From NCBI GenBank assembly GCA_018714925.1, contig DVMP01000048.1, positions 1 to 45,404 on the forward strand: DNA of 45,404 nt, read 5' to 3'. Position numbers and translations under genes: made by a program. Origin of the DNA: Candidatus Allocopromorpha excrementigallinarum (GTDB lineage Bacteria > Bacillota > Clostridia > Peptostreptococcales > Anaerovoracaceae). The first letter of the stretch is position 1; each line of letters opens with the position of its first letter. This document shows positions 12,037 to 41,819 of the stretch, piece by piece. The notes beneath the pieces were generated by a model that saw only the letters and a list, made by a program, of their open reading frames with translations, searched no databases and had not been told where the DNA came from.

Positions 12037-14254
12037 TATGAAGCTGAAGCCTAACGAAAAGCTGGATGTGAGAAATATCCTCAAGGATTTGGACAAATAC
12101 AGCCCCAGAAGAAGGGGCTGGACCTGGAGGAAGCACGCGCCAGGCCTTAAAATGGGTCCCTTCGAGTATCGCGACTGCTCGGAGCCTCTTAAAAACAGCG
12201 TGGGGCTTCCTCCCGCCAAATATTTCGGAAACATAGATCCTCAGCCTGACGCTGTTATAACAACAGAGATAGCCTCGGGAAGATTCGAGGATGATATAAG
12301 AAGGATGAGAATGGCTGCCTGGCACGGCGCTGATCACATAATGGTAATAAGGCATATGGGGCAGTCCCACATAGACGGACTTATGGAGGGGACCCCTCAG
12401 GGAATAGGGGGAGTGCCCATTACAAGGAAGCAGGTGAGAGCCCAGAGAAAGGCCCTGGACATTATAGAGGACGAGGTGGGAAGACCCATAAACTACCATT
12501 CGTATGTTTCAGGAGTGGCGGGCCCCGACGTGGCTGTAATGTTCGCGGAGGAGGGAATAAACGGAGCTCATCAGGATCCTCAGTACAACGTTCTCTACAG
12601 AGACATAAACTGTGTAAGATCCTTTGTGGACGCCTGCGAGTCAAAGAAGATAATGGCCTGGGCCGGAATACTTCAGATAGACGGGGCCCACAACGCCAAC
12701 GCCACGGCCAGAGAGGCCTGGAAGGTGATGCCCGAGCTTATAGTTCAGCACGCCATTAACGCTCTCTTTTCGGAAAAGGTGGGAATAAAGCCTGAAAATA
12801 TCAGCCTTTCCACTGTACCGCCCACAGCCGCTCCCGCCCCGTGCGTTTACATGGATCTGCCCTACGCGGTGGCTCTCAGGGAAATATGCGACAGATACAA
12901 AATGAGAGCTCAGCAGAATACCAAGTATATCTGCTCCTCAACGAGAGAGGCGACAGTAACCCATGTGCTCAACATGCTCATCTCAAAGCTGACCAGAGCC
13001 GATATACAGTCCACAATTACTCCTGACGAGGGAAGAAACGTGCCGTGGCACATATACAATATAGAAGCCTGCGACAACGCCAAGCAGACACTGGTAGGCC
13101 TTGACGGCCTTATGGAGATGGTGGAGCTTAAGAAGGAAGGCCCTCTCAGGGAAAAGGTCAGAGAAATAAAGGAAAGAGCATGTCTGTTTATGGAGGAAAT
13201 CCTCGAGACGGGCGGCTACTTTAAGGCTGTGGAGGAAGGCTTTTTCGTGGATTCCGCTCAGTACCCGGAAAGAAACGGAGACGGCATCGCCAGAAAGGCG
13301 GATGGAGGCGTAGGCAGCGGCTGTATTTTCCAAAGAGAGGATGACTATATGGCCCCGGTTACCGCCCACTTCGGATACAACAATGTAGAGCAGTACGGAG
13401 GAGATCCTGAGAACCCGGCGGCTCTTATAGGAGGCTGCACCTTTGAGGACAGAGATAAAATCGTGTATATAGACGAGCTGGATGAAGAGGACTGTGTTGA
13501 AAGAAGACTTGAGAATGTGGAAAGGTACCTGGATGGCCGGGCTTTAAAGCCTGAGATGGAATGGTGCGGAGACGGAGTCGTTATGATGACCATGTGTCTG
13601 CCCGTACACGCCAGAGCAGCCGAGGCCGCCGCCCTGGAGATAGGAAGAAGGCTGGGCCTTGAGGATCCCGAGGTTATAAACAGAGAGGTTCTTCAGGAAG
13701 CGGAGGGGACCAGAATAGAAATGAAGGGCAGGGTTTCCTTTGACATAGATCCCGCTAATCTTGAGATACCTCCCGAGCCCCATCATATGAGCGACGAGGA
13801 GCTTTACAGAGAATTCAGCGAGCATCCCATGACAGTGGTATGCGGTACAGTGGGAGAAGACGAGCATTCGGTAGGCCTCAGGGAGATAATAAACATTAAG
13901 CACGGAGGCATAGAAAAATGGGGAGTAAAGGTGGAATATCTGGGAACCTCGGTTCCCGTGGAAAAGCTGGTGGACGCGGCCATTGAGCTGGACGCCGACG
14001 CTATTTTAGCCTCCACCATTATATCCCATGACAACATTCACTATAAGAACATGAAGCGGATAAACGATCTCGCGGTGGAAAAGGGTATAAGAGACAAGGT
14101 GATAATCGCCGCGGGAGGTACTCAGGTAGTGCCGGAGGAGGCCAGAAGCACAGGCATAGACCGGGGATTTGGCAGAGATTCCCACGGCATAGACGTAGCC
14201 ACCTTCCTGGCGGAGGAAGCCATGAGAAGGAGAGGGGAGACAAATGAAAGCTGA
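12029..14254 (+). CDS. oraE: D-ornithine 4,5-aminomutase E subunit (adenosylcobalamin/PLP)
   Basis: 741 aa; MTDMKLKPNEKLDVRNILKDLDKYSPRRRGWTWR; cobalamin motif DEHSVG (DxHxxG) near C-terminus. Confidence 0.95.
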   Translation: MTDMKLKPNEKLDVRNILKDLDKYSPRRRGWTWRKHAPGLKMGPFEYRDCSEPLKNSVGLPPAKYFGNIDPQPDAVITTEIASGRFEDDIRRMRMAAWHGADHIMVIRHMGQSHIDGLMEGTPQGIGGVPITRKQVRAQRKALDIIEDEVGRPINYHSYVSGVAGPDVAVMFAEEGINGAHQDPQYNVLYRDINCVRSFVDACESKKIMAWAGILQIDGAHNANATAREAWKVMPELIVQHAINALFSEKVGIKPENISLSTVPPTAAPAPCVYMDLPYAVALREICDRYKMRAQQNTKYICSSTREATVTHVLNMLISKLTRADIQSTITPDEGRNVPWHIYNIEACDNAKQTLVGLDGLMEMVELKKEGPLREKVREIKERACLFMEEILETGGYFKAVEEGFFVDSAQYPERNGDGIARKADGGVGSGCIFQREDDYMAPVTAHFGYNNVEQYGGDPENPAALIGGCTFEDRDKIVYIDELDEEDCVERRLENVERYLDGRALKPEMEWCGDGVVMMTMCLPVHARAAEAAALEIGRRLGLEDPEVINREVLQEAEGTRIEMKGRVSFDIDPANLEIPPEPHHMSDEELYREFSEHPMTVVCGTVGEDEHSVGLREIINIKHGGIEKWGVKVEYLGTSVPVEKLVDAAIELDADAILASTIISHDNIHYKNMKRINDLAVEKGIRDKVIIAAGGTQVVPEEARSTGIDRGFGRDSHGIDVATFLAEEAMRRRGETNES

Positions 14255-35227: not shown

Positions 35228-36265
35228 GTGGATATTATCAGGAAAACAAGAAGGATCGTAGAACACAACCTCATTAAAACCGTTGTTATCCTGGCGATCC
35301 TGGTGGCGGCCATAGGAGCCGCGGGGGTCGCGGCCTCGGGAGGAAGCATTCTGGGAGCCCTTCCCGCCGATAAAATGAAGGAAGTCGCGGAAAATCCCCT
35401 TACAGGCAGAATCGCGGAGGAAGAGCCGGCGCCAAGACCCCTGGTGGTATCAATTGACAACGTGGGAGACGCGATTCCTCAGTCATGGCTCTCCATGGCT
35501 GATCTCATCTATGAATTCCCAGTGGAGGGAGCGCAGACAAGAATTCAGGCCATTTATTACGGAAGCTTTCCCGAGGAACTGGGTCCTGTAAGAAGCACAA
35601 GGCCTTACTTTGTAGATCTGACAAGAGAATACAGGGGAATATTTCTGGCTCACGGCTGGAGCCCTCAGGCAAAGGAATATCTCCTCAGCGGAGTTGTTCC
35701 ATATATAAACGCCATGAACAGCGACTGCGAGTTTTACAGGGACAGTGAGAAATCGGCTCCTCACAATTCATACATAAAATGGGAGGAAGTTAAGAGCAAA
35801 ATAGACGAGGAGGGCTGGTGGGAAGAAAGGCAGGACATAAGACCCTTCCTCTTTCTCAGCGGAGCCCAGAGAAACGACGGAGACGCGGCGGAGGAAATAA
35901 GCTTCAGATATTCGGGAAGCAGATATGAGTTTACCTACGACAGAGAAAGAAATCTCTATATCAGAACCCTTGACGGAGAAAGATATACAGACAGAGAGAC
36001 GGGAGAGGATATAACCTGCTCCAACGTGCTGGTCCAGACTGTGGAAAGCCGCGTTTTAGACGGCGCCGGAAGACTTGAGATAGATATGACCGCAGGGGGA
36101 GAGGCTACCCTTTTTACGGGCGGCGTAGCGGTAAAGGGAGCCTGGTCACGGGATGATCTCGATTCAAGAACCATATTCGTTGACACCGAGGGGAACGAGT
36201 TCAGGCTGACCCCCGGAAGCACATGGGTTGAGGTGGTTGATCAGAACTGCAGTATAAGCTATTGA
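35228..36265 (+). CDS. DUF3048 domain-containing protein, N-terminal TM/signal (GTG start)
   Basis: RPLVVSIDNVGDAIPQSWLSMADLIYEFPVEGAQTRIQAIYYGSFPEELGPVRSTRPYFVDLTREY. Confidence 0.88.
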   Translation: MDIIRKTRRIVEHNLIKTVVILAILVAAIGAAGVAASGGSILGALPADKMKEVAENPLTGRIAEEEPAPRPLVVSIDNVGDAIPQSWLSMADLIYEFPVEGAQTRIQAIYYGSFPEELGPVRSTRPYFVDLTREYRGIFLAHGWSPQAKEYLLSGVVPYINAMNSDCEFYRDSEKSAPHNSYIKWEEVKSKIDEEGWWEERQDIRPFLFLSGAQRNDGDAAEEISFRYSGSRYEFTYDRERNLYIRTLDGERYTDRETGEDITCSNVLVQTVESRVLDGAGRLEIDMTAGGEATLFTGGVAVKGAWSRDDLDSRTIFVDTEGNEFRLTPGSTWVEVVDQNCSISY

Positions 36266-37627
36266 TCAGCGGTTTACCACAGCCTGAAGGACCCGGTTGG
36301 CCACAGAGCCCGCGGTGCTGGAGCCGTAGCCGCCGTTTTCCACCAGAACAACAAAGGCGTAAGGATTTTCCGTATCGTCAAGAAAGCCTACGAACCAGGC
36401 GTTAGGACGCCTGTCGCCTCCCACCTCAGCTGTGCCTGACTTGGCGCATATGCTGAGTCCTGGGAACATATCGGATCCGTAGTTGTTGACAACGTTGCCT
36501 GCCATCATTGATTTCAGAGAATCGGCTGTAGAGGCCTCGATCATCTGCTTGGTCTGTGTCCCCACTACAGGAAGCTTCGAGACCTGGCTCTCCACAAAGG
36601 AGCCGGGTTTTATTATTGTCGGCATCACTGCTTCTCCTCCGTTGGCAATGGCGCCTACATAGACCATCATGGAGCAGGGGTTTACCATATCGTGATACTG
36701 GCCTATTCCCGTCCAGGCAAGATTGACTCCGCCGTCAGGATAGTCGAAGGTGCCGGGCTTTGTTTTGATGCCGTTTACGTCGATGCTCTCGGTGAGCCCC
36801 GCTTTCCCGGTGTATTCTTCCAGGACGGTGCCGCCCAGCTTTTCGGCCAGCTGACCGAAGTAGCAGTTGCATGAAACCTCAAGAGCCCTTTCAAGATCCA
36901 CCGTTCCGTGAGCCGAAAGGTCTGTAACATCGTCTCCGTGTCCGTAGTCTACCCTGCCGGTACAGTTGATTTCCCACGTATAGGCGTCACTGAGAGTTTC
37001 TATGGATGCCGCGGCGGTTACCAGCTTAAATATTGAGCCGGGAACAAAGGTTCCGGAGGTAAATCTGTTTATATACACTCCCGATGTATCGTCGGAGGAA
37101 ATTTCCGGAGGATCCTCAGGATCATAGGTAGGAGAGCTTACCATACATATTATTTCTCCCGTCTCATAGTTGTAGACTCCCACAGTGCCCCTTCGTCCGT
37201 CGAAAGCCTCGTAGGCGGCGGCGCATACCTGTGAGTCAAGGGTTAGGGTAACGTCCTCGCCGGCGTTGTTGAGGGAATAAACTCCGTTTATGAAATCATA
37301 TCCTATAAATTCGTCTGTAAAGGCCCTGTTGGCTCCGGTGGATATGTTGTTGTCTTTATCTCCTGTTATATGCATGAGGGCCCTTCTCACAGTGGAGTCC
37401 TCATTAAAAATCATTCCGTTTTCGGTGTTACGCATTAAAAGCACGCCGTTGGTATCGTACAGGGCGCCCTTTGTAAGATCGCCATTGGTATAGACGTCGC
37501 GGTTTCCTTCATAGGAAGCCCAGTCGTCTCCATAGGCGAAGTATCTGTATGAAAACACGCCTACGCCCACAAGGAGGACGCATGCCAGCAGAAGACACAT
37601 TATGGCTCTTTTTTCTACCTTTTTCAT
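36266..37627 (-). CDS. Class B penicillin-binding protein (PbpA-like transpeptidase)
   Basis: GSIFK (SxxK), SCN (SxN), KSGTAE (KTG box). Confidence 0.93.
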   Translation of the reverse strand: MKKVEKRAIMCLLLACVLLVGVGVFSYRYFAYGDDWASYEGNRDVYTNGDLTKGALYDTNGVLLMRNTENGMIFNEDSTVRRALMHITGDKDNNISTGANRAFTDEFIGYDFINGVYSLNNAGEDVTLTLDSQVCAAAYEAFDGRRGTVGVYNYETGEIICMVSSPTYDPEDPPEISSDDTSGVYINRFTSGTFVPGSIFKLVTAAASIETLSDAYTWEINCTGRVDYGHGDDVTDLSAHGTVDLERALEVSCNCYFGQLAEKLGGTVLEEYTGKAGLTESIDVNGIKTKPGTFDYPDGGVNLAWTGIGQYHDMVNPCSMMVYVGAIANGGEAVMPTIIKPGSFVESQVSKLPVVGTQTKQMIEASTADSLKSMMAGNVVNNYGSDMFPGLSICAKSGTAEVGGDRRPNAWFVGFLDDTENPYAFVVLVENGGYGSSTAGSVANRVLQAVVNR

Positions 37628-39642
37628 TTCTTATCGCCTCCGAATATATCATCTAAAGTAAGGGGCTCATCCTTACGGTCGTCTCTGCCGCCGCTGTAGG
37701 AAGACCTTCTCGAGCCTGCCGGGTCCGGGCCTTTGGCGGAAGAAGAGTCCTCAAAGCTCTTAAAAAAGTCGTCGTCGGAAAAATCCTCATATTTTATGGA
37801 TTTTCTGCGTCCGGCGGAGGAGGAAGGCTTTCTTACTATAGTATCCTGACTGCCCTTATAGGTGTAGTCCTCAACTGATTTAGGAGTGTAAAAAAGCTCC
37901 TCGGGATTTTCTATGCCCCGGCCCTCCAGCTCGTCGTCAAACTCGTTTTTTCTGTCAAGGCGTACGGCGAAGCTGGCGTTCTGCCTTGTATCCGCGGCCT
38001 TGAGAAAGGCCAGAAGTCCCCAGGAGGCTATCATGCTGGTGCCGCCCGAGGAAACAAAGGGGAAGGTTACTCCCGTGAGAGGAAGCAGATCAACCGAGCC
38101 GAACACATTGAGTATGGTCTGGAATATGAAGAGAGAGGTGGCGGCGCAGGCGGCTATGCTGTAATAGGTTGACCTTCCCGCTATAATGGATCTTACGGCA
38201 AAAACTCCCAGAGTGATTACGCAGAGCACCGCCAGCACGGCTATAATAAGGCCCCATTCCTCGCTTAAAAGTCCGAATACAAGGTCTGTACTTGAAGCCG
38301 CAACCTCGCTGAGATGGCCGTTTCCCGCTCCCAGACCGGGGAGTCCGCCGCTGGCCGCGGAGGTCATGGTCTGAACCTGCTGAAAGCCTGAATCTGTAGG
38401 ATCATCCCACACATGGCCCCAGGCGGAGAACCTGTCGGCCACATAAGGACGGAATCTGAGAACCATAAGCCCCATAAGGCCCGCAGCGCCTATTATGAGG
38501 AAGAGCTTGGTAAAGTCTCCGCTTCGCAGGAAGGATATTATAAGGAAGGTGACGAAGAATATTATAGCTGTACCGAAATCGCCCATAATAGCCAGACAGC
38601 CCAGACAGAACACTGAAAAGGCCATGAATACAGTGAGATTTTTTCTCTGCTGCAGCTCGTCGAGAGTCGCTGCTCCAACGTATACGAAGACTATTTTTAC
38701 CAGCTCGGATGGCTGTATGGAAAATGAGTCTCCTATGACTATCCAGTTCTGAGCGCCTGACCTTACGGTTCCGAAAAGAAGATTCACCAGCAGGAGAAAG
38801 GCGCTTATTCCTACTAATATATATGTTATTCTCTTTGCTCTGTTGAGATCTCTCAGAAACCAGCACAGTCCGAAGAAGAGCCCTACGCCCAGCACAGCGC
38901 AGAGAGCCTGCTTCATTCCCTGTCCGGGAAAGGCCGTTACCGTTACAGCCAGACTGAGGGTGGAGAGAAAGAAGGCTATTATTTCCATTTCAAAGCCCAC
39001 GCGCCTGAATATCTTCATAAAGATTACATAACCCCACATGAGGGCGCAGAGAAGGCCGAAGGCAAAGGGCAGAGAGGAAGGAAAATCCTCTCCCATGGAT
39101 ACCCGGAACTGCATAACCGTAAGAAGCTGGAATAAAGTAAGAGCCGCCAGCGAAGGCCATGGCGAAGCGGGATGGGTCTTGCGCTTCCTCTTCTCTATAT
39201 TGTTAACCCTCTCCTGAAGGCTTACGGGATAGAGAGTAAAATCAGAGCCGCCTATGGTCAGTATGTCGCCGGCCTTAAGCTCAGTGGGCTTTTTAACGGG
39301 ACGGCCGTTTATGGCCGAGCCGTTTTTTGAATTGAGATCGTTGTATCTCCACACTCCCGCCGAGTCTCTTATAAGAGTGCCGTGGCTTCTTGAAACGCTG
39401 CTGAGGTTAAGGATAACATCGCAGCCTCGCCCCCTTCCTATAAGATTTTCCCAGTGGGTAAGGGGAACGCTGGTGTCATCGGGACAGCCTAAATAAGCCC
39501 ATATCTCGGAAGGATTTCTCGATCTGAGAAGAGAGCTTATCTGATGAGCCAGTATGAAAACCGCCAGAATAACAAACGCCCATCTGGCTCCTGTTGTAAA
39601 ATATATGCCGATCATTTCGACGGCTGTATTCAGAAAATCCAT
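37624..39642 (-). CDS. FtsW/RodA/SpoVE (SEDS) protein with N-terminal FHA domain
   Basis: FHA: LIGRGRGCDVILNLSSVSRSHGTLIRDSAGVWRYNDLNSKNGSAING; SEDS: QPSELVKI...PLTGVTFPFVSSGGTSM. Confidence 0.93.
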   Translation of the reverse strand: MDFLNTAVEMIGIYFTTGARWAFVILAVFILAHQISSLLRSRNPSEIWAYLGCPDDTSVPLTHWENLIGRGRGCDVILNLSSVSRSHGTLIRDSAGVWRYNDLNSKNGSAINGRPVKKPTELKAGDILTIGGSDFTLYPVSLQERVNNIEKRKRKTHPASPWPSLAALTLFQLLTVMQFRVSMGEDFPSSLPFAFGLLCALMWGYVIFMKIFRRVGFEMEIIAFFLSTLSLAVTVTAFPGQGMKQALCAVLGVGLFFGLCWFLRDLNRAKRITYILVGISAFLLLVNLLFGTVRSGAQNWIVIGDSFSIQPSELVKIVFVYVGAATLDELQQRKNLTVFMAFSVFCLGCLAIMGDFGTAIIFFVTFLIISFLRSGDFTKLFLIIGAAGLMGLMVLRFRPYVADRFSAWGHVWDDPTDSGFQQVQTMTSAASGGLPGLGAGNGHLSEVAASSTDLVFGLLSEEWGLIIAVLAVLCVITLGVFAVRSIIAGRSTYYSIAACAATSLFIFQTILNVFGSVDLLPLTGVTFPFVSSGGTSMIASWGLLAFLKAADTRQNASFAVRLDRKNEFDDELEGRGIENPEELFYTPKSVEDYTYKGSQDTIVRKPSSSAGRRKSIKYEDFSDDDFFKSFEDSSSAKGPDPAGSRRSSYSGGRDDRKDEPLTLDDIFGGDKK

Positions 39643-39655
39643 TGGAACCTTCTCC

Positions 39656-40939
39656 TTATGGTGTGTATTTTATCCGCTGATTTTGTAATTGGTGTGATGA
39701 AGACTGCTGTTTTACGGCTCTGTACCCCAGCACGGTTATCTGCTCGCCGGGAACATTATGGTAAAAATGCTTTTCGCTGCCGGTGGTCCTGCCGATGATC
39801 TTTCTGTCCGTAAGAGTCATGGCGTTTTCCTCAAGATCAGCCTTTATTCTCCCGAGATTCATTTTTTCGGGAAGAAAGTCGGGATTGTCGGCCTTGAAGT
39901 TGTTGAGGCTTTTGGGAGCCTCGTTGTATCCGGCGAATATACCCACGGCAAGGCCGCCTTTTTTTATAAGGGGCGCGATATATGAGTACAGACTCCTGTT
40001 ATATGTAAATATACTGTTGGTCATGGAAAAATCGTCTATATATATGTCTATGCATTCCCTGCAGAGAGGAAGTCTTGAAACATTGCCCGCCATAAAGACC
40101 GTCTGCGAGTCACAGTCCTCCAGATACTGCTGTATCTTTGATATTTTCTTCAGGGAGGGATCGACTATCACATAGGTCACGGAGGGACTGAATCTGCGGC
40201 AGTACCTGAGTATAAAATTGAAAGGAAAGGGACCTGTCATTACATTGCGAGGCTCCTTTGCCTCCAGTATCTGGTGGTATATCCACAGATAGGTTCTGGC
40301 TATAAGCATACGGTAGCATCCGCTGAACTGGTCGATGATGCCTGTAACGGTTTCCATGTTCTTAAATGATTTGAAGGGCGTGTCCTCGGCGGCTCCCTCG
40401 CACAGGATGACTCCTTTCTCTATGGAGGCTCTGTATCCGCACTGGCAGTGCAGGGTGCCCGAAAGTATTTTGCCGCCGCTGATATCGGCTGATTCCAGAC
40501 TGAGGGGCCTGCGGCAGTCGGGGCAGTAGAGATAAGGAATGAAGGAAAAAGGAAACCCGTAGGAAGCAGCCGTCGCATCGCTTCTCTTTGCCTCGGAAAA
40601 TTTTTCCAGCTCCTCATCGAGCCTTTCTATGGCCGCGGACAGCTTGTCTCTTTCGGAGGTAAGCTGGTCTCTCTTTCCTGAAAGAAGCTGGGACATTATG
40701 TCAAGCACTGTATCGTCCTTGAAGTTGGATGTTTTTTCCAGGAAAAACAGAAGCTCTATCTCCTCAAGAGAAAGGCCGAACTCCTTGTATTTAAGTATTT
40801 TTTCCATATCATCCATGCAGGCTCTGCTGAAAACATACTGGTTGTTCCTCCTGCCGGGAGTAAGGAGAGCCTTGTCCATATAATATCTCACAGTAGATAT
40901 GTTCAGACCGTACTTTTCGGCGAATTCTCCTATTTTCAT
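39656..40939 (-). CDS. MerR-family regulator fused to Cys-rich zinc-ribbon and methyltransferase-like domain
   Basis: MKIGEFAEKYGLNISTVRYYMDKALLTPGR; YCPDCRRPL...HCQCGYRASIEKGVILCEG; VTYVIVDPSLKKISKIQQYL..VSRLPLCRECIDIYID. Confidence 0.85.
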   Translation of the reverse strand: MKIGEFAEKYGLNISTVRYYMDKALLTPGRRNNQYVFSRACMDDMEKILKYKEFGLSLEEIELLFFLEKTSNFKDDTVLDIMSQLLSGKRDQLTSERDKLSAAIERLDEELEKFSEAKRSDATAASYGFPFSFIPYLYCPDCRRPLSLESADISGGKILSGTLHCQCGYRASIEKGVILCEGAAEDTPFKSFKNMETVTGIIDQFSGCYRMLIARTYLWIYHQILEAKEPRNVMTGPFPFNFILRYCRRFSPSVTYVIVDPSLKKISKIQQYLEDCDSQTVFMAGNVSRLPLCRECIDIYIDDFSMTNSIFTYNRSLYSYIAPLIKKGGLAVGIFAGYNEAPKSLNNFKADNPDFLPEKMNLGRIKADLEENAMTLTDRKIIGRTTGSEKHFYHNVPGEQITVLGYRAVKQQSSSHQLQNQRIKYTP

Positions 40940-40964
40940 TTCAACCACACCTTTCCGCAATTAA

Positions 40965-40993
40965 ATTATACTAAAAACAGACTCCCGCGGCAA
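40965..40993 (-). promoter_or_regulatory. Promoter of MerR/FHA-FtsW/PBP operon
   Basis: Minus strand TTGCCG-N17-TATAAT. Confidence 0.6.
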
Positions 40994-41128
40994 GGCTAAA
41001 GGAAGGTGAAGCCGGGTTGAGGTTTTTGGAAAAAACCATGTTGCGGTGCATCGGGGTCAATGAGATATGATACAGAAAGGAGAGGATAAAGTCACAGCCT
41101 CTTAAAAGATAAATATAAATTATAACAC

Positions 41129-41184
41129 AAAGGGGACTGTCCCGCGGCTGACCTGTCAGGCCGGTTTGAAGGACGGTCTCTTTT
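41129..41184. repeat. Long imperfect stem-loop (REP-like or structured RNA)
   Basis: AAAGGGGACTGTCC pairs with GGACGGTCTCTTTT over 14 positions with 3 G-U; nested CGGCTGAC/GTCAGGCCG hairpin. Confidence 0.55.
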
Positions 41185-41252: not shown

Positions 41253-41819
41253 ATGAAGAAATACGCTTTTATTCTTAAGGCGGAGGGCGCGAAGCCCGAC
41301 ACCTGCTCTCTTACATACAGAAACGATGAAAGCCTTTGTATTATAGCCGCGGCGGGAAAGGTGCAGGCTGCGGAGGAATATGTGAAGGGACTTTCCGGGC
41401 AGGGCTTTTATACCATAGATCTCAGCGGTGAATTCAGCGACCCGGAGCTGGAGCTAATCAGCAGAGCGGCGGGAGAAAAGGTCAGTATCAGAAAGGCTCT
41501 TTATGATCTTAACGGTCTTGTGAGGCTGGACAGGCTGGAAGCTTCATTCCTGCCGAAAACACAAGGTATAATCATACGCGCCGGCGGAGTGGAAAAAGCC
41601 TGGGAGGGAGTTATAAGAAGAAGGTCCGGGGATGTGAGAGTGATGATTGTAAGGGATATCCCCCAGGCAAAAAGAGCAGCCGTAAGAATGCTGGAAAAGA
41701 GAGTGTGTCTCATAGAGCTGAGCCGGTGGTTTGATAATCTCAGACTGGATGCCGTAGTAAGGGCTGTGGACGACGCTGTTCCCGTAGGAACCTGCGGCAA
41801 GCTCTTTATATACAGGTGA
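41253..41819 (+). CDS. DUF6506-like protein with two tandem repeats
   Basis: IDLSGEFSDPELELISRAAGEKVSI (first half) parallels IELSRWFDNLRLDAVVRAVDDAVPVG (second half). Confidence 0.65.
   Translation: MKKYAFILKAEGAKPDTCSLTYRNDESLCIIAAAGKVQAAEEYVKGLSGQGFYTIDLSGEFSDPELELISRAAGEKVSIRKALYDLNGLVRLDRLEASFLPKTQGIIIRAGGVEKAWEGVIRRRSGDVRVMIVRDIPQAKRAAVRMLEKRVCLIELSRWFDNLRLDAVVRAVDDAVPVGTCGKLFIYR

Follow-up and report, generated by a model that had tools for sequence, protein, structure and literature searches.

Is a MerR-type regulator that precedes a pair of wall-synthesis genes a dedicated controller of that pair, or has it come to stand there by other means? In the window, by which we mean the whole 45,404-nt stretch analysed (contig DVMP01000048.1 of Candidatus Allocopromorpha excrementigallinarum), the minus strand between 36266 and 40939 carries three genes. 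They are, in order, a 427-aa MerR/zinc-ribbon/methyltransferase-like protein (MerR-MT, 39656-40939), a 672-aa fusion of an FHA domain to a SEDS (FtsW/RodA-type) glycosyltransferase (FHA-SEDS, 37624-39642) and a short class B penicillin-binding protein of 453 aa (PBP, 36266-37627). The first two are separated by 13 nt (39643-39655), and the last two overlap by 4 nt (37624-37627). MerR-MT begins at the ATG at 40939 and stops at 39656; this start is favoured over an alternative upstream TTG at 40960 because orthologues begin at ATG. Its GC3 of 0.58 is similar to that of neighbouring genes, and its composition shows no sign of a recent foreign origin. A sigma-70-like promoter, TTGCCG-17-TATAAT, was found on the minus strand at 40993-40965 and is likely the promoter of the whole three-gene unit. 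The FHA-SEDS and PBP assignments rest on Pfam matches (FHA, E 2.8e-16; FTSW_RODA_SPOVE, E 9.6e-54; Transpeptidase, E 5.2e-43) and on motifs: GRGRGCD, SRSH and NG of FHA and the STDLVF segment of SEDS are retained, as are the PBP active-site motifs S-I-F-K (198), S-C-N (252) and K-S-G (396). The original prediction had described this layout, promoter and set of assignments correctly; it went on to propose that the methyltransferase is a dead ligand sensor governing the SEDS-PBP pair. A DUF3048 gene (35228-36265) converges with the PBP gene, and the same layout is seen in G022 (L035).

The regulator was characterized by domain search, alignment, an AlphaFold2 model and Foldseek. Its N-terminal winged HTH (residues 1-70) matches PF13411 (MerR_1; E 1.6e-11, 44.6 bits versus a cut-off of 21.6) and is followed by a coiled coil, helix 76-115 in the model, and by a zinc ribbon, C139-x-x-C142 ... 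C165-x-C167, with a sub-threshold match to Trm112 (E 1.3e-4). All three elements had been read from the sequence beforehand. The methyltransferase region falls below the Pfam threshold (E 0.24), and the predicted structure places an RlmA-like methyltransferase fold at about 207-412. The model, built from 19 orthologues, has a pLDDT of 81.6 and a pTM of 0.65, and its top Foldseek match in the PDB is RlmA(I) (1p91, E 1.2e-9); among 857 PDB chains at E <= 0.001, the best 50 are mostly class I methyltransferases. Since the model matches RlmA(I) best, the domain order MerR HTH, coiled coil, zinc ribbon and methyltransferase fold stands, and the predicted Rossmann fold is borne out. The effector domain is best explained as the descendant of an RlmA-like protein combining a zinc ribbon with a class I methyltransferase. 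The window protein also has a 17-residue C-terminal tail, missing in most orthologues, which may derive from intergenic DNA that is now translated as far as the ribosome-binding site of FHA-SEDS. A single-sequence scan of the genome contigs returned no MerR-MT relatives and an alignment-based scan did find relatives; a plasmid search gave two distant matches only, and a literature search on MerR-methyltransferase fusions yielded nothing relevant among the papers covered.

The usual partner of this regulator is a different gene. A GrdX-like gene lies divergent from the MerR-MT orthologue in 14 of the 17 other loci with upstream sequence, at a distance of 155-280 bp in most of them; the remaining three include two with divergent cytosine/purine-type permeases (L079, L085). 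The GrdX-like proteins match NCBIfam GrdX just under the cut-off (E 1e-4 to 6e-10), and their AlphaFold2 model (L072:7405-7749 and relatives, A4) is confident (pLDDT 91) and has no PDB match at E <= 0.001, the best being E 0.85. In C. difficile, GrdX itself belongs to the glycine reductase operon (PMC3510511). One query found no GrdX-like match in the window genome, which is 91% complete. The divergent gene of the window, DUF6506 (41253-41819, plus strand, assigned by domain search), was ruled out as a distant GrdX homologue (hhalign probability 0.7%). In one same-genus genome, grdX and the MerR gene are separated by another open frame (L087:6993-7898) that starts like GrdX (ERIIVTNNP) and is perhaps a duplicated or fragmentary GrdX-like copy.

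Comparison with relatives further revealed a predicted operator and a second, divergent promoter, both of which the original prediction had missed. The intergenic regions contain a composite element in which one dyad is followed, 40 bp on (start to start), by a second located inside a divergent promoter with a spacer of 18-19 bp; the promoter points towards the GrdX-like gene in relatives. The search matrix was derived from eight loci with leave-one-out scoring, and the window was scored with a matrix from other genomes only. The element was recovered in the window and in 14 of 17 other intergenic regions, each score being reached by 0/1000 shuffles. The loci are related, so that common descent contributes to this conservation, yet the proteins share only ~47% identity. 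In the window, the element is intact at 41006-41071 with a score of 38.3, which 0/1000 shuffles reach; the next best place on either strand has 6.1. Its first dyad (41006-41021, no strand assigned) reads GTGAAGCCGGGTTGAG, the family consensus being approximately GTGAACCNNGGTTCAC. The promoter TTGCGG-19-TATGAT (41041-41071, plus strand) is in register with those of relatives, and the second dyad within its spacer is weak. Spacers of 19-20 bp are the rule for MerR-family promoters (PMC5045206). The predicted operator is not universal, since no element was recovered in L074 or in two same-genus orthologues, L075 and L087. When the rest of the genome was scanned, the only near match to the dyad was the palindrome GGGAACCTCGGTTCCC at 13942-13957 of the window, which was rejected as a second operator because it performed no better than a reversed-pattern control. 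A terminator-like hairpin (41129-41184, plus strand; -26.6 kcal/mol, z -2.2), followed by a T-rich run, stands after the divergent promoter and before the start of DUF6506; it may be an attenuator or the leftover terminator of a lost gene; an Rfam search of the divergent leader for a riboswitch gave no credible match.

The original prediction implied that MerR-MT, FHA-SEDS and PBP would be linked in related genomes, and the neighbourhood survey contradicted it. FHA-SEDS is present in 36 out of 36 same-genus genomes searched, with PBP adjacent wherever the contig reached, and in 183 out of 297 genomes of the family. Strong MerR-MT orthologues occur in about 15 of these 297, and only two of the 36 same-genus genomes have the MerR gene, on contigs other than that of FHA-SEDS. 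The two genes are on different contigs in G018, G027, G065, G144 and G196, and the carriers G067, G083 and G091 have no FHA-SEDS match at E 1e-70. With flanks of 1.5 to 10 kb examined, no locus except that of the window brings them together. The link to the wall-synthesis operon is a local, one-genome arrangement, and the cell-wall inference is weak. The gene upstream of FHA-SEDS changes often within the genus (L031-L060), most commonly being a membrane transporter (PF03547), as it is next to the closest FHA-SEDS (80%, G009), and otherwise DUF6506, an endonuclease IV-like gene or an ABC transporter. Two genomes of the same genus (G022, G023) have no MerR gene at this place, and DUF6506 there is the immediate divergent neighbour of FHA-SEDS. 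In the window, the MerR gene stands between the two, and DUF6506 occupies the place that the GrdX-like gene has in most relatives. Synteny with the genus is thus preserved on both flanks, and this speaks against a chimeric contig. The position of the regulator before FHA-SEDS and PBP appears to be lineage-specific, and the direction of the rearrangement is inferred.

Collectively, MerR-MT is best explained as a regulator of metabolism whose promoter has, in one lineage, taken over a pair of wall-synthesis genes, and not as a conserved regulator of wall synthesis. We consider it reasonably likely that it is a GrdX-associated, autoregulated one-component regulator that has lost its partner here and now sits with the DUF6506 gene on one side and, on the other, the housekeeping operon of FHA-SEDS and PBP, which it probably co-transcribes. 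The regulator would bind the two dyads of the predicted operator between the two divergent promoters, adjust the promoter with the long spacer, which drives the divergent gene (usually GrdX-like in relatives), when its ligand is present, and set its own level at the promoter at 40993-40965. In the window, transcription from the latter would lead through the MerR gene and across the 13 nt into FHA-SEDS and PBP; since this gap is so short, the pair is probably co-transcribed from the regulator's promoter. The strongest competitor, which we regard as unlikely without being negligible, is that the adjacency is fortuitous: the regulator would control itself and the divergent gene only, FHA-SEDS/PBP would have its own promoter, and any read-through would be inconsequential. 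Because its upstream neighbour varies so widely in the genus, the pair must usually be expressed independently, and an internal promoter for FHA-SEDS is possible; however, a search of the MerR gene's 3' end gave no consensus promoter, and the narrow gap likewise argues for co-transcription.

As the original prediction had quoted, RNVMTGPFPFNFILRY stands at the SAM-loop position and the VIVDPS and LP strands are present; motif I is replaced by GPFxxN (G236, P237, F238, N241). The 18 orthologues collected (43-50% identity; Anaerovorax, Sinanaerobacter and Firmicutes MAGs) gave an alignment of 19 rows, in all of which G-P-F-x-x-N occupies this position and the glycine-rich loop is missing. D260-P-S, which includes the acidic residue kept at the end of beta-2, and D302-D303 are invariant across the same rows. 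Judged by these aligned sequences, the odd motif I is a family trait and not local decay or damage. Conservation at the strand ends lining the would-be SAM pocket, computed on 17 non-redundant full rows, is 0.78 for beta-1, 0.81 for beta-2 and 0.80 for beta-4, exceeding the domain mean of 0.65 and speaking for a binding site that has been kept; the beta-3 end (0.66) is not above the mean. With GPFxxN fixed in place of the SAM loop, MerR-MT therefore most likely recognises a small metabolite and methylates nothing, and the alignment suggests a domain that has been repurposed for ligand binding and is probably non-catalytic. This part of the original prediction held: the fold is there, its SAM loop is replaced, and the acidic beta-2 residue is retained and invariant, as a repurposed sensor predicts. 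The domain could alternatively still be active with a non-canonical SAM loop, the protein both regulating and modifying something such as RNA or a metabolite. The invariant D260 and beta-4 D302-D303 and the best fold match to an active rRNA methyltransferase would suit such an enzyme, but the uniform substitution of Pro-Phe for the glycine-rich loop and the different ways in which other branches lost that loop make it improbable. Still less probable is a regulator dedicated to wall stress, in which the dead methyltransferase would sense SAM, a lipid or a wall precursor and govern a phospho-regulated SEDS-PBP pair: the shared strand, 13-nt gap, common upstream promoter, intact FHA motifs and a PASTA kinase in the genome would fit it, but the linkage was seen in the window genome only, orthologues adjoin GrdX-like genes, and three carriers had no FHA-SEDS match at E 1e-70.

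Beyond the close orthologues, distant homologues (L069, L070) retain a canonical motif I, DLGSGVG/ELGTGVG, and other branches of the same architecture have ETYINAW(FF), EPLINTC or PDxS-type replacements. Motif I states largely track the branches of the tree, and each branch tends to have neighbouring genes of its own: HisD-like dehydrogenases, an aminotransferase, MFS_2 transporters, CoA-transferase and amidohydrolases, some of these pairings resting on 1-2 loci. We tentatively propose, as a reading that could well go either way and leans slightly towards doubt, that a clostridial MerR family turned an RNA-methyltransferase fold into metabolite sensors, the SAM loop being rewritten differently and fixedly in each branch, each with its own catabolic neighbour, and that one genome's sensor took transcriptional control of a SEDS-PBP wall-synthesis pair. 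If true, the converted-methyltransferase branch, with its several independent-looking loop replacements and matching neighbours, would offer a natural series for the passage from enzyme pocket to sensor. Because the predicted operator is conserved, the sensor reading can be put to the test, and the GrdX-like protein acquires a candidate for its regulator. It is the converted methyltransferase, a member of a wider family, that holds the interest; the wall link, as far as has been shown, is a peculiarity of one genome.

Several known systems resemble parts of this locus. GrdX (NF038093), a component of the glycine reductase operon of Clostridia, is the nearest family to the usual divergent partner; by contrast, the GrdX-like partner genes are solitary and just under the family cut-off, and none was found in the window genome. 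In the actinobacterial fhaB-rodA-pbpA locus, FHA (as a separate protein), SEDS and a class B PBP are encoded together, with kinase and phosphatase genes adjacent. The window likewise has FHA, SEDS and class B PBP side by side, and the only Ser/Thr kinase found in its genome (G000:C21:13430-14188; L119) is by sequence of the PASTA type and adjoins a PP2C-like phosphatase gene. However, the kinase and phosphatase are on another contig (C21), the MerR gene has no actinobacterial counterpart, and FHA is fused to SEDS; a literature search on such fusions in Clostridia returned nothing relevant. RlmA(I), the 23S rRNA m1G745 methyltransferase (PDB 1p91), resembles MerR-MT in that a class I methyltransferase fold comes after a zinc ribbon, whereas MerR-MT carries in addition an N-terminal HTH and coiled coil of the MerR type and has no glycine-rich SAM loop. 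Most of the MerR regulators known have a metal-binding loop or a drug-binding domain. CueR, CadR, BmrR and Mta share with the window the HTH, the coiled coil for dimerisation and a promoter whose 19-bp spacer contains a dyad, but the effector domain in the window is RlmA-like instead of a metal loop or a GyrI-like/TipAS domain, and the window has a further dyad 40 bp away.
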